This document shows, one piece after another, positions 1 to 64,000 of a stretch of 64,000 nucleotides of DNA. The notes under the pieces were generated by a model. That model did no database searches. It saw only the letters and a list, made by a program, of their open reading frames with translations, and was not told where the DNA came from. The DNA is from Candidatus Aminicenantota bacterium (GTDB taxonomy: Bacteria; Acidobacteriota; Aminicenantia; Aminicenantales; Aminicenantaceae), in the NCBI GenBank assembly GCA_014727835.1, contig WJMT01000046.1, positions 28,902 through 92,901 of the forward strand, given 5' to 3'. The first letter of the stretch is position 1, and the number at the start of each line of letters is the position of its first letter. Made by a program: the position numbers and the translations under genes.

Positions 1-81
1 CGGGAGGTCTGGCCGTTTCCAGCCAAGCCCTGTCGGTCAGGTCTCATGGCAGATGCTTTAGAGAACCTGACTCGGAGTTAA
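1..81 (+). CDS. 3' end of a CDS entering from the left edge (product unknown)
   Basis: Frame 1 is open from base 1 to TAA at 79-81: REVWPFPAKPCRSGLMADALENLTRS*. Protein-like composition, too short to identify. Confidence 0.45.
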   Translation, partial: REVWPFPAKPCRSGLMADALENLTRS

Positions 82-330
82 GAAAAATGATATCAAATTC
101 ACGTCCTTTTTCCAACAAAATAATGAACCTGGAGATTTCATAAAAAAAGGCGATTAAAATTGAAAACAAAAGCAAGGAAAATGTCCATATCATTGTTCAT
201 AAAAAATTCTTGTATATCGCAGAAATGAATTTAGTAATGAAAACATCGCCATTTTTTTGAATAGTACAGGTAAAATAATTCTTAAAATTTTTTCAAAAAA
301 ACATTATCCTATAGATTCGAAGGGTAAAGA

Positions 331-472: not shown

Positions 473-1357
473 ATGAATCTGTTAGGAAAACGCAAGTGGT
501 TTCAATCAGCGAGTGCTCTGTTTTTTAACCTGAATCTTCCTCTTTTTTTCACAGGCGCGATTCACAAAGGCCCTACCAAGGGAATCTGTGTGCCGGTTTT
601 CAACTGCTATTCCTGTCCGGCAGCTATGGGTGCCTGTCCTATCGGTTCTCTTCAGAATTCCCTGGCCAACCTCAGGTTTAATCTGTCGTTGGGCATTTAT
701 CAGTTTGGTCTTTATGTGATCGGTTCAATGGCTGTGGTGGGAAGCCTTATCGGACGAATTCCCTGTGGTTGGTTGTGTCCGTTTGGACTGATTCAGGAAC
801 TGTTCTATAAAATCCCTTCCCCCAAACTGAAAATCCCCGGATTCTTCAAATATTTCCGATACGTCTTTCTCATCGTGTTTGTGGTGCTGATGCCGCTTTT
901 GGTGGTTGATCCTTTAGGCCTGGGACAGACTTGGTTTTGCAAATTGATCTGTCCTGCCGGGACTCTGGAAGCCGGACTCCCTCTGCTAGCTGCCAATTCA
1001 GCTCTGCGTTCTCAGGTGGGATTTCTATTTGCCTGGAAATTTCTTCTTCTGATAGGTTTTTTGGTTTGGATGGTATTCACACTGCGGCCATTCTGCCGGA
1101 GCGTATGCCCTCTGGGAACCATCCTTGGATTTTTCAACAAAGCCAGCCTTTTCCAGATGCATGTGGATGATGAAAAATGCACTCAATGTGGCCAATGTGC
1201 CAGAGTTTGTCCAGTAGGATTGGATCCCAACTTGACCCCCAACTCACCTGAATGCATCAGGTGTTTGAAGTGTCTGGACACCTGTTCTTATGGAGCTGTC
1301 AATTATAATTTTTTAAAAAAACACAAACAAGAAAAATGTTCAAGTCATTGTTTTTGA
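473..1357 (+). CDS. 4Fe-4S binding membrane protein (NapH/polyferredoxin-like)
   Basis: Several TM segments, GRIPCGWLCPFGLIQE and RPFCRSVCPLGT motifs, C-terminal ferredoxin motifs CTQCGQCARVCP and CIRCLKCLDTC. Confidence 0.85.
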   Translation: MNLLGKRKWFQSASALFFNLNLPLFFTGAIHKGPTKGICVPVFNCYSCPAAMGACPIGSLQNSLANLRFNLSLGIYQFGLYVIGSMAVVGSLIGRIPCGWLCPFGLIQELFYKIPSPKLKIPGFFKYFRYVFLIVFVVLMPLLVVDPLGLGQTWFCKLICPAGTLEAGLPLLAANSALRSQVGFLFAWKFLLLIGFLVWMVFTLRPFCRSVCPLGTILGFFNKASLFQMHVDDEKCTQCGQCARVCPVGLDPNLTPNSPECIRCLKCLDTCSYGAVNYNFLKKHKQEKCSSHCF

Positions 1358-1442
1358 AAAAGGCTTGAATATCGATACATAGAAGATGATAATGAAAACA
1401 TCGGCTTTTTTTATGAATAGTCCAGGTTAAAGGATAAAACAA

Positions 1443-5952: not shown

Positions 5953-6000
5953 TGAGGCGAGCCGATCTTACCGCATCTGCAGCAATCTCGACTCGTGAAT
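5953..6000 (-). repeat. Deletion derivative of the ~108-bp interspersed repeat (copy C)
   Basis: Reverse complement attcacgagtcgagattgctgcagatgcggtaagatcggctcgcctca joins the left and right ends of copy A at a single gcagatgcg. Confidence 0.8.
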
Positions 6001-22911: not shown

Positions 22912-24924
22912 ATGCTTTCCACAGCAGGTCAAATCATCTTCAGTTTGGTCATTTGTGCCACTTTTTTGGCGTTCATGATTCCGGTCATCCACCGGATCCG
23001 GATCATCCTTAAAGGAAAAAAAGACCAACGGTTCGATCACATCATCAAAAGAGCCTGGGATGCTTTCATTAAGGTCTTTTTCCAAAGGTGCACACTCCGC
23101 AGAGATCGGGTGTGGACTGGATTCATCCATCTGTTCATTTTCTATGGAGCTTTGACTTTTGACACCATGTCCGTGAATCACGTCTTAGAGGGGTATCTCC
23201 CTGGATTTTATCTGTTTGGTGGAGGAAACTTCGGGCTTTTCTTTTCTTTTATTGTGGACCTGTTTGCTGTTCTGGTCCTAGTGGCCGTGGTCTTTATGGC
23301 CTTTAGGAGATACATCATCCGCCCGGAAGCTTACAAAACCACTCTCCTTGACTCTGGGATCATCTACATGCTTTTGACCATTGTCACTCTCAGCTATCTC
23401 TACTTCGAGACCTTTTCCATTGCCCATCATCCAGGTACAGAAAGACTGTCTTTTATCGGAGCACCTCTCGCCCAATGGGTGAATCAAGCCGGTCTGTCCG
23501 CCTCTGCTGTGTCTTTACATTTCAATGTTTCCTGGTGGCTGCATGTGCTGATCGTGTTCGGATTCATTGCGTATGTTCCCTATTCCAAATACTTTCACAT
23601 GTTTGCCGGCTCTTTCAATGTACTGGTCAGAAATGAGAAACCTTTGGGTGCCCTGGATTCCATGGATATCGAACATTCCGAGGTGTTTGGAGTGGAAAAA
23701 GCTTCGGATTATACCTGGAAAGACCTGCTGGACACTTTTGCCTGTATGGAATGCGGCCGGTGCCAGGATGTGTGTCCTGCTTTTGAAACTGAAAAACCTC
23801 TTTCTCCTAAGATGATCATCTTTAATCTGAAAAGACATCTGTTGGATAACGGCAAAAAATACATCGCTGAAAAAAGGGATGATATCGATCCTTTGATAAA
23901 AGAGACTGTGACAGAAGGGGAGATCTGGACCTGCACCACCTGCGGCGCCTGCATGTACGTATGTCCTGTGGAAATCGAACATATCCCCAAGATCGTGGGC
24001 CTGAGACAGGGCCAGGTGCTGATGGAAAGCAAATTCCCCTCAGAGCTCAATCAATTCTTCAAAAGTATGGAGACCAACAGCAATCCCTGGGGCATTGGTT
24101 TTTCAGAACGAGCAGACTGGGCTGAAGGTCTGGATGTCAAGCAGATCAAAGATCATCCGGATACAGAATTCCTCTTGTGGGTGGGATGCGCGGGTTCTTT
24201 TGATGAGAGAGGCAAAAAGATCACCCAGGCCCTGGTCAAAATCCTGAACAATGCTGGTGTTGACTTTGCCATTTTAGGCACAGAAGAGAAATGCTGCGGT
24301 GATTCCTCAAAACGTTTGGGAAACGAATATCTTTTCCAGATGCAGGCTGCAGAAGTCATCAACCAGTTTGAACAGTATAACGTCAAAAAAATCATCACTT
24401 TATGCCCTCATGGATTCAATACCTTTCAAAACGACTATCCCAGACTTTTGGATAAGGTACCGGAGATTAAAAAAGAGGCAGCCGAGCACTTCAAAGCCAT
24501 CCAGATTTTCCATCATGTCCCCATGATATTGGAGTTGATCAAAGAAAACCGCCTGCCTCTGATCAATAAAACCGACCAGCCCCTCACCTATCATGACTCC
24601 TGTTATCTGGGACGCCATAACAAAATCATCAAACAACCCAGGGAAGTCCTCAACCTGATCAGCCAAAACAAGGTGAAAGAACTGGAAAACAATAAAGAGC
24701 ACAGCTTCTGCTGCGGTGCGGGCGGCGGGCTGATGTGGACAGAAGAGTCGCTCGGCAGCCGAATCAATCATAAAAGAACCCAGGAAGTCATTAACTCTAA
24801 GGTTTCCACTGCAGCCACTTCCTGTCCCTTCTGTCTCACTATGATCCAGGATGCCCTGGAAGATAAAGAGGTCACAGACATTTCAGCCAAGGACATTGCC
24901 CAGCTTGTGGCTGAGTGTTTGTGA
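22912..24924 (+). CDS. Membrane-bound (Fe-S) oxidoreductase, HdrD/GlpC-type with NarI-like domain
   Basis: N-terminal TM helices; CMECGRCQDVCPA and CTTCGACMYVCPV; two CCG domains (EEKCCGDSSKR, HSFCCGAGGG). Confidence 0.9.
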   Translation: MLSTAGQIIFSLVICATFLAFMIPVIHRIRIILKGKKDQRFDHIIKRAWDAFIKVFFQRCTLRRDRVWTGFIHLFIFYGALTFDTMSVNHVLEGYLPGFYLFGGGNFGLFFSFIVDLFAVLVLVAVVFMAFRRYIIRPEAYKTTLLDSGIIYMLLTIVTLSYLYFETFSIAHHPGTERLSFIGAPLAQWVNQAGLSASAVSLHFNVSWWLHVLIVFGFIAYVPYSKYFHMFAGSFNVLVRNEKPLGALDSMDIEHSEVFGVEKASDYTWKDLLDTFACMECGRCQDVCPAFETEKPLSPKMIIFNLKRHLLDNGKKYIAEKRDDIDPLIKETVTEGEIWTCTTCGACMYVCPVEIEHIPKIVGLRQGQVLMESKFPSELNQFFKSMETNSNPWGIGFSERADWAEGLDVKQIKDHPDTEFLLWVGCAGSFDERGKKITQALVKILNNAGVDFAILGTEEKCCGDSSKRLGNEYLFQMQAAEVINQFEQYNVKKIITLCPHGFNTFQNDYPRLLDKVPEIKKEAAEHFKAIQIFHHVPMILELIKENRLPLINKTDQPLTYHDSCYLGRHNKIIKQPREVLNLISQNKVKELENNKEHSFCCGAGGGLMWTEESLGSRINHKRTQEVINSKVSTAATSCPFCLTMIQDALEDKEVTDISAKDIAQLVAECL

Positions 24925-24951
24925 AAATCAGATATCGATAGTCCTGGACCT

Positions 24952-25059
24952 TTCGCCAGTCGAGATTGCTGCAGATGCGAGGAACAAGACATGAAGTGTG
25001 GTCCTTCACCGCGAATGTCTCGTAACAAAGGAGGTGCGGTGAGACCTGCTCTCCTGCAA
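24952..25059 (+). repeat. Interspersed ~108-bp hairpin repeat (copy B)
   Basis: cgagattgctgcagatgcgagg...gacatgaagtgtggtccttcac...atgtctcgtaacaaag...gtgcggtgaga aligns to copy A at 63892-64000. Confidence 0.85.
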
Positions 25060-25128
25060 GGCAAAAGCTGCCCATTAAGATAAAAATAGAGATAACAGGT
25101 AAAATTGTAAATATTTTATCAGCGGCTT

Positions 25129-26163
25129 TTATGAATGGAGGATGTTGTTAAAAGCATTGATGGTCCGCTCAATATCATTATCATCGATTCCTCTGTTGGT
25201 GACCATGCGGACCCCCTGCGGAACGGAAAGAGCCAGGATTCCTTTCTGCTTCAAACGGTTCAATAGATCCGGGACTGCGAGGTCCGAATGCTCAAATCCG
25301 AAGATGATGATATCTGTCTCTACGAATTCCGGGTTGAGCTGAATTCCAGGCATCTTATGGATAGCAAGAGCGAGTTTCTTGGCTCGCATGTGGTCTTCTT
25401 TAAGCCTGGAGACCATGTTTTGAAGAGCCAGGATGCCCGGAGCTGCGATGACTCCCACCTGCCTCATACCGCCTCCCAGGGCTTTCCGGATCCTGCGACC
25501 GAGATCAATGAAATCTTGCGGGCCGGCCAGGATAGAGCCTATGGGAGCAGAGAGTCCTTTAGACAGACAAAACATCACAGAGTCTGACATCCTTGCATAT
25601 TCTTTCACCGGGACCCCTGATGCCACACTGGCATTGAATAAGCGGGCTCCGTCCAAATGGACATGGATCCCGTGCTTTTCTGCAATCGCTTTGATTGACC
25701 TCATATTTTCCAGAGGAATGACCGCTCCTCCCCAATTGTTGTGGGTGTTTTCAATGCAAATCAAAGATGTCCGGGGAAGATGGACAGATGGTTTTTTGAT
25801 ATTGTTCTCCACCTCTCCTGGATCCATAGCCCCTCTGTGTGATGTCAGCACTCTGGGAGATACCCGTGAAATAAAGGTCATATGAGTGGACTCCATGTTA
25901 TAGATATGAGAGCGGGCTTCAATGATCACCTCATCCAGCTCCCGGGTCCAGGCTTTGATGGCAATGGAATTGCCCATAGTCCCTGAAGGCACGTACAGGG
26001 CGGCTTTCTTTCCCAAGGTGTCTGCGGCTAGAGATTCCAGTTTCTGGACAGTGAGATCGTCTCCCAGCACATCGTCCCCGACTTCTGCCTCTGCCATGGC
26101 TCTTCGCATCTCAGAGGTGGGTTTGGTGACTGTATCCGAACGAAAATCCGATATAGGATTCAT
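25129..26163 (-). CDS. ltaE: Low-specificity L-threonine aldolase
   Basis: DFRSDTVTKPTSEMRRAMAEAEVGDDVLGDDLTVQKLE; HLDGARLFNA; CLSKGLSAPIGS. Confidence 0.93.
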   Translation of the reverse strand: MNPISDFRSDTVTKPTSEMRRAMAEAEVGDDVLGDDLTVQKLESLAADTLGKKAALYVPSGTMGNSIAIKAWTRELDEVIIEARSHIYNMESTHMTFISRVSPRVLTSHRGAMDPGEVENNIKKPSVHLPRTSLICIENTHNNWGGAVIPLENMRSIKAIAEKHGIHVHLDGARLFNASVASGVPVKEYARMSDSVMFCLSKGLSAPIGSILAGPQDFIDLGRRIRKALGGGMRQVGVIAAPGILALQNMVSRLKEDHMRAKKLALAIHKMPGIQLNPEFVETDIIIFGFEHSDLAVPDLLNRLKQKGILALSVPQGVRMVTNRGIDDNDIERTINAFNNILHS

Positions 26164-63855: not shown

Positions 63856-63891
63856 ATCCGATTTGATGAATGAACCAGCAAATCCTGGAAT

Positions 63892-64000
63892 ATTCACGAA
63901 CCGAGATTGCCGCAGATGCGAGGCACGAGACATGAAGACGTGGTCCTTCACTTCGAATGTCTCGTAACAAAGCAGATGCGGTGAGATCGGCTCGCCTGTA
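63892..64000 (+). repeat. Interspersed ~108-bp hairpin repeat (copy A, runs to the window edge)
   Basis: Stem CGAGACAT (63926-63933)/ATGTCTCG (63957-63964) with inner TGAAG/CTTCA; flanked by gcagatgcg direct repeats at 63912-63920 and 63972-63980. Confidence 0.85.

Follow-up and report, generated by a model that had tools for sequence, protein, structure and literature searches.

A Mini-Transposon Superfamily of Candidatus Aminicenantes With a Conserved Internal Hairpin and Ends Resembling Those of IS1380-Family Elements

In the current study, we characterized an interspersed hairpin repeat of Candidatus Aminicenantes. The repeat is a MITE, i.e., a non-autonomous DNA transposon of 252–256 bp that contains no transposase gene, and it has probably spread through Aminicenantes genomes as the passenger of a borrowed transposase. 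This classification follows from its terminal inverted repeats, a second hairpin and a 4-bp YTAR target duplication. On the best reading, the repeat constitutes a new superfamily of MITEs, itself of a known kind and marked by an unusual, conserved hairpin in its interior. The explanation that we prefer as a whole, at a probability of roughly 0.8, is that this MITE is moved in trans by an IS1380-family DDE transposase and that its internal hairpin (hairpin 1) has the role proposed for it below. MITEs are usually seen as the passive products of deletion, with nothing but their ends to unite them. In this element, conservation is strongest in an internal hairpin that covaries and tolerates G.U on one strand, which makes it testable whether the internal RNA structure of a MITE is selected, and whether for spread of the element or for harmless landing in operons. 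Our survey of the literature, which covered mostly non-subscription journals, found no description of MITEs or repeats in Aminicenantes.

Copies in the Window and Their Surroundings

The host genome (G000) is a 3.14-Mb assembly of a Candidatus Aminicenantes bacterium (Acidobacteriota) in 132 contigs, estimated as 92% complete. The window, meaning the whole 64,000-nucleotide stretch that was analyzed, corresponds to C7:28902-92901 of this assembly. The initial annotation had described two copies of a hairpin repeat of about 108 bp in the window and proposed that they belong to an interspersed family. Both copies were recovered by a covariance model (cores at 24956-25052 and 63897-63994), and the family is real, with 39 BLAST and 35 covariance model matches in G000; chance alone would produce a core pattern 0.01 times per window. 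The 108 bp, however, proved to be the left half of a larger unit. The features found in the window are as follows:

24943..25144, plus strand: copy A, whole decayed element, from the left terminal repeat CCTGGACCTTTCG to a degenerate right end TGAATGGAGGATG; ends approximate
24956..25052, plus strand: hairpin 1 of copy A, the covarying core and the feature initially annotated; covariance model 66.5 bits, E 7.8e-15
25063..25130, plus strand: hairpin 2 of copy A; arms 25063-25078 and 25115-25130, an inverted repeat 75% complementary
63884..64000, plus strand: copy B, with left terminal repeat CCTGGAATATTCAC, hairpin 1 and the start of the linker; right half absent
63897..63994, plus strand: hairpin 1 of copy B; covariance model 103.6 bits, E 1.3e-24
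5958..5995, minus strand: third, shortened copy of hairpin 1; covariance model 36.1 bits, E 7.7e-7, 60 model positions deleted
1320..1426, plus strand: right-end fragment of the element, hairpin-2 region included; inner limit approximate

The limits of copy A were set by comparing its sequence against two-ended copies, and on this reading it measures ~200 bp vs. the norm of 252–256 bp; its hairpin 2 is the counterpart of hairpin 2 in the remaining copies. The element is preceded by a gene for an iron-sulfur oxidoreductase (CCG and Fer4 domains), which ends at 24924, and on its other side the minus-strand gene at 25129-26163 is threonine-aldolase-like (Beta_elim_lyase); the last codons of this gene overlap the right end of the element. 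The terminal-repeat match of copy B lies at contig position 92785 (window position 63884), and its right half is missing because the window ends where contig C7 ends (contig position 92901, window position 64000). In the right-end fragment, the terminal repeat CCTGGACTATTCAT at 1413-1426 on the minus strand (contig positions 30314-30327, zero mismatches) is followed by AAAAAAGCCGATG and then by the hairpin-2 region. A hairpin had been noted in each of the two copies, and the hairpin is real. Copy B folds at -49.0 kcal/mol (z -5.3), while the decayed copy A, taken alone, folds no better than its own shuffles (z 0.12). As initially noted, no transposase lies nearby. The window also begins within a molybdenum/tungsten cofactor riboswitch (Rfam RF01055, positions 1-89, minus strand, 53.4 bits), which is cut by the window start.

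Architecture of the Whole Element

When copies were aligned with their flanks, the unit was found to be 252–256 bp long and bounded by the terminal inverted repeats CCTGGAYTATTCA...TGAATARTYCAGG. From the left, it consists of the terminal repeat CCTGGATTATTCA, hairpin 1 (~98 nt, CACGAGTC through GGCTCGCCT), a short linker, hairpin 2 and the right terminal repeat TGAATARTYCAGG. Hairpin 2 is formed by an A-rich left arm (AAAAAATGGCGAT in one group of copies and AAAAATGCCGAC, AAATCTGTATGCAC or AAAATCAGCCTGCA in others), a variable AT-rich loop of roughly 100 nt and a matching T-rich right arm; each arm fits its true partner better than it fits a swapped one (mean of 13.5 vs. 11.6 of 16 positions). 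The length of the element is constant even where its inner sequence has diverged beyond recognition, and 84 of 105 two-ended copies span 250–259 bp, well within the limit of ~500 bp used here for MITEs. A second type of element, about 245–372 bp long, has the same or related ends and a different interior (TGTGGCTGAAGCGACATTGAAG...; L041 1501-1745, L061 1501-1872 and L228), and may carry a structure of its own.

Evidence for Transposition

The terminal motif CCTGGAYTATTCAY occurs 90 times in G000 when up to one mismatch is allowed, as opposed to three times for the reversed control, and in two-ended copies the terminal repeats are paired. The target duplication is 4 bp long and of the form YTAR, mostly TTAA, and the left flank has the consensus TTAA or CTAG. 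When the identity of left and right flanks was compared for duplication lengths from 1 to 8, an excess peaked only at 4 bp (9.2 per position vs. at most 3.0 for any other length). Exact 4-bp duplications border eight of 33 copies in G000 (1.5 in shuffles) and 14 of 65 copies over all (4.4 in shuffles), counts that take in related copies, so that the shuffled controls overstate independence. Most copies have no perfect duplication and are therefore old.

Insertion is also apparent when the intergenic region between gcvT and gcvH is compared among relatives. G000 carries a 252-bp element there, its congener G001 shows, at a different point, a terminal-repeat remnant of 45 bp, and G004 (L228) has a different element of ~370 bp with related ends. 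Neither an element nor a remnant is present between these genes in G003, G017, G018, G020 or G021.

An IS1380-Family Transposase as the Likely Mobilizer

The IS1380 family, of which ISEcp1 is an example, shares with the MITE terminal repeats of the CCTGRATWATTCAT type and a TA-centered 4-bp duplication (TTAA, CTAG). IS1380 is the likely mobilizer, judging from sequence comparison, since the ends of the MITE resemble those of an intact IS1380 element in a relative, and since an IS1380 element in G157 is flanked by CTAG. The first of these (L088 in G034, of the same taxonomic family) encodes an intact transposase (PF13701, E 1.3e-156), and an unbiased inverted-repeat search identified its terminal repeats, TAAACCTGAATAATTCATAAAA, with 19 of 22 positions matched between both ends. 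Just before the start codon, its left end has a repeat, an A-run and a stem (GCTGTTTCC...GGAAACAGC), the same order as at the right end of the MITE; the two sets of ends are similar, not identical, and no clean 4-bp duplication was seen at L088. The second, in another Acidobacteriota family, has the ends CCCGGATATCTCATCG/CGTTGAGAAATGCGGA with CTAG on both sides. In addition, L101 (1369-1729) is a deletion derivative of IS1380 of roughly 350 bp that retains both ends along with a remnant of the transposase and has a left flank resembling TTAA; it is an intermediate between IS and MITE and shows how such MITEs arise. Most likely, an IS1380-family DDE transposase would recognize the ends and move the element in trans, and it would leave a 4-bp YTAR duplication, preferably TTAA. 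Among prokaryotes, IS1380 transposases have been described as distantly related to piggyBac (PMC10140906), the target duplication of which is TTAA (PMC10813416).

The MITE differs from IS1380 in having no transposase gene and in its hairpin 1, for which the covariance model found no match in the IS loci L088-L090 or L362. No genome was found to contain both the repeat and an IS1380 whose ends match it letter for letter. A PF13701 match was not obtained in G000, an absence that is not certain given an assembly of 132 contigs and 92% completeness, and PF01609 DDE transposases were likewise not found in that genome. PF13701 scores above the cut-off in only 12 of 38 genomes of the family, though most carry the repeat; these assemblies are incomplete and break at repeats.

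Covariation and Strand Asymmetry of Hairpin 1

The covariance model proposed by the initial annotation revealed strong covariation. The set comprised 21 sequences, of which 20 came from outside the window, mostly with <86% mutual identity. In the 35-pair structure, 96.6% of cells are paired (86.2% when shuffled), 20 of the 35 pairs have changed on both sides (11.3 when shuffled), and none of 500 shuffles reached any of the covariation measures. When the partner was slid by one to three columns, pairing fell to 29–41%; this control is biased in favor of the structure, which was derived from the tested sequences, a bias that weighs less on the shuffle control and on the G.U asymmetry. Double changes occur at all nine pairs of the inner stem and include swaps of G-C to C-G. 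The internal loop 'RAG / AACGMA' was also considered as a possible kink-turn, an idea abandoned because the G.A pairs that it requires are not conserved.

The tolerated mismatches depend on the strand. Among pairs with a Watson-Crick majority, read on the plus strand, 52 cells hold G.U and four hold A.C; 16 pairs show G.U only and a single pair A.C only (p 2.7e-4). Unpaired columns show no bias between changes of the G.U and A.C types. For a typical copy, the folding energy is -52.3 kcal/mol on the plus strand vs. -37.1 kcal/mol on the minus strand. This looks like the result of selection on a single-stranded plus-strand molecule, for which RNA is likelier than single-stranded DNA. The asymmetry is compatible with action as RNA, and hairpin 1 probably acts as such on the plus strand, as far as can be told from sequence. 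No gathering-level Rfam match was found over the repeat. In the role that we propose, which is the least certain step of our explanation, a stable and correctly placed leader hairpin would limit harm when the element lands before genes or inside operons; the AT-rich right end would face the gene, and the ribosome-binding site would stay clear of the strong hairpin.

Position Relative to Genes and Alternative Explanations

The location of the element was analyzed for 105 two-ended copies from many genomes, with plain open reading frames taken as genes. The neighbor at the right end points away from the element 75 times and toward it 19 times (p 5e-9), as opposed to 48 vs. 41 for the neighbor at the left end, although copies from a single genome are not wholly independent. 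Where both neighbors run in the same direction, the cleanest test of orientation, the arrangement (+,+) outnumbers (-,-) by 36 to 10 (p 1.6e-4). The median distance to a gene start, starts being approximate, is 29 bp for the right end vs. 120 bp for the left (p 1.3e-7). The simplest account of the bias is selection against a strong hairpin next to a ribosome-binding site.

A further possibility is that the MITE became, or carries, a mobile 5′-leader selected for its effect on the downstream gene through mRNA stability, attenuation or an outward promoter. The short distance from the right end to gene starts, the 75 vs. 19 excess of co-oriented neighbors, the presence of copies within operons such as gcvT-gcvH, the RNA-type covariation and the conserved internal loops would all suit such a leader. 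We nevertheless think it unlikely, as the same pattern of orientation is expected from selection against harmful insertions, and as relatives do not share the copy at a given gene and many copies are decayed, neither of which speaks for selection at individual loci. Nor did the right half contain an excess of outward sigma-70 promoter-like sites over shuffles (z 0.21 ± 0.32), in what is a weak test with 12 independent sequence groups.

The initial annotation had called the repeat REP- or MITE-like, and it is the second of these labels that stands. A palindrome of the REP/BIME type would be moved by RAYT, a Y1 tyrosine transposase, reading the hairpin as single-stranded DNA, and such a recognizer would also give a strong hairpin with strand-specific tolerance of mismatches. 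REP/BIME sequences are, like this MITE, abundant intergenic palindromes, and G000 has three RAYT-like Y1_Tnp genes of 241–270 codons (L359, L360 and L361 on contigs C105, C123 and C49). None of these prospective partners, however, has a hairpin copy or a good terminal repeat within ~1.5 kb. Moreover, transposition by Y1 enzymes, as in IS200/IS605, makes no target duplication, whereas the repeat has both terminal inverted repeats and a 4-bp duplication. This mechanism is therefore very improbable.

A still slimmer chance is given to rho-independent terminators or 3′-end processing signals, a function suggested initially from the location of the two copies at gene 3′ ends, one of them between convergent genes. 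Copy A does lie between converging genes, and hairpin 2 consists of a GC stem followed by a T-run. For the family, on the other hand, a convergent context is rare (seven of the 105 two-ended copies); most copies are located upstream of co-oriented starts and inside co-directional pairs such as gcvT-gcvH, 36 of them between same-direction genes, which argues against a terminator role. Furthermore, hairpin 1 has no T-run behind it and the loop of hairpin 2 is ~100 nt. Integron attC sites, which are also imperfect palindromes of ~100 nt beside genes, are extremely unlikely, given that the copies are scattered rather than in cassette arrays, lie inside conserved operons, and possess terminal repeats and a target duplication.

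Two described MITEs are instructive in comparison with the MITE characterized here. Chunjie, from Geobacter uraniireducens, is described as an element of 178–235 bp with 38 full and 57 partial copies (PMC10969869); by this description, it is of the same kind and size class and sits within an operon without breaking it, in a different phylum. Transcripts of QMITE of Coxiella form stable hairpins, and its truncated copies resemble REPs (PMC10969869). Like our element it is a MITE with stable hairpins, but its duplication is 7–9 bp and its stem is formed mainly by long terminal repeats, whereas the conserved part of the Aminicenantes MITE is an internal covarying hairpin.

The Hairpin Core in Other Acidobacteriota

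Weaker matches to the covariance model were obtained in other families of Acidobacteriota. The core pattern GCAGATGCRAGGC...CAACGMAGCAGATGC occurs 39 times in G306 and several times in G086, G157, G312, G239 and G375, whereas its reversed control has no match; five of these six genomes have no PF13701. Many of the core copies, as read by eye, lie inside mini-transposons with quite different long terminal repeats; examples with 4-bp duplications such as CTAG or TTAG are L333, L336, L337, L345 and L349. The hairpin core therefore outlasts the termini. Its ends may have drifted during common descent, different transposons may have captured it, or both may have happened. It is conceivable, albeit doubtful, that hairpin 1, as a portable module of structured RNA, has persisted across families of Acidobacteriota through changes of the transposon termini and works as a 5′ leader. 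If true, it would be a mobile RNA that makes insertions before genes or in operons tolerable or useful. The same five loci and L342 combine unrelated long terminal repeats, YTAR duplications and the hairpin core, and some have a second, inverted hairpin.

Copy Number and Distribution

A genome-wide search, likewise proposed at the outset, found many copies in G000. The 39 BLAST matches to copy A include 28 long ones and, apart from copy A itself, are 74–85% identical to it; the covariance model gives ~35 copies of hairpin 1. Copies occur at the ends of contigs C7, C8, C18 and C43, indicating that the assembly breaks at the repeat and that the true copy number is therefore uncertain. In genomes of Aminicenantes, the element accounts for many unannotated hairpins between genes as well as for contig breaks.

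Beyond G000, an exact 25-base match was found in 68 stretches of GTDB genomes, of which 65 are titled Candidatus Aminicenantes and three only 'Acidobacteriota bacterium.' With a 272-base query (E <= 1e-4), the element was detected in 33 of 36 further members of the family, one or two of these matches being weak, and in two of 23 genomes of the same order outside the family, both from one genus. A 400-kb stretch of G014, taken as an unbiased sample, yielded one hairpin match only and no two-ended copy, and the hairpin pattern was absent from IMG/VR viral contigs.

Some copies are closely associated with one another. In L031 (G000:C91), two near-identical copies of the same orientation (98-219 and 1545-1666) flank a GTPase gene and have matching flanks; they could be recombination partners or mark a duplicated insertion. 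Elsewhere in G000 (L013, L015, L017 and L003), some copies are arranged head to tail, with joints just a few bases long as in CCAGG-AAAA-CCTGG, the arrangement expected from repeated insertion at the same site.
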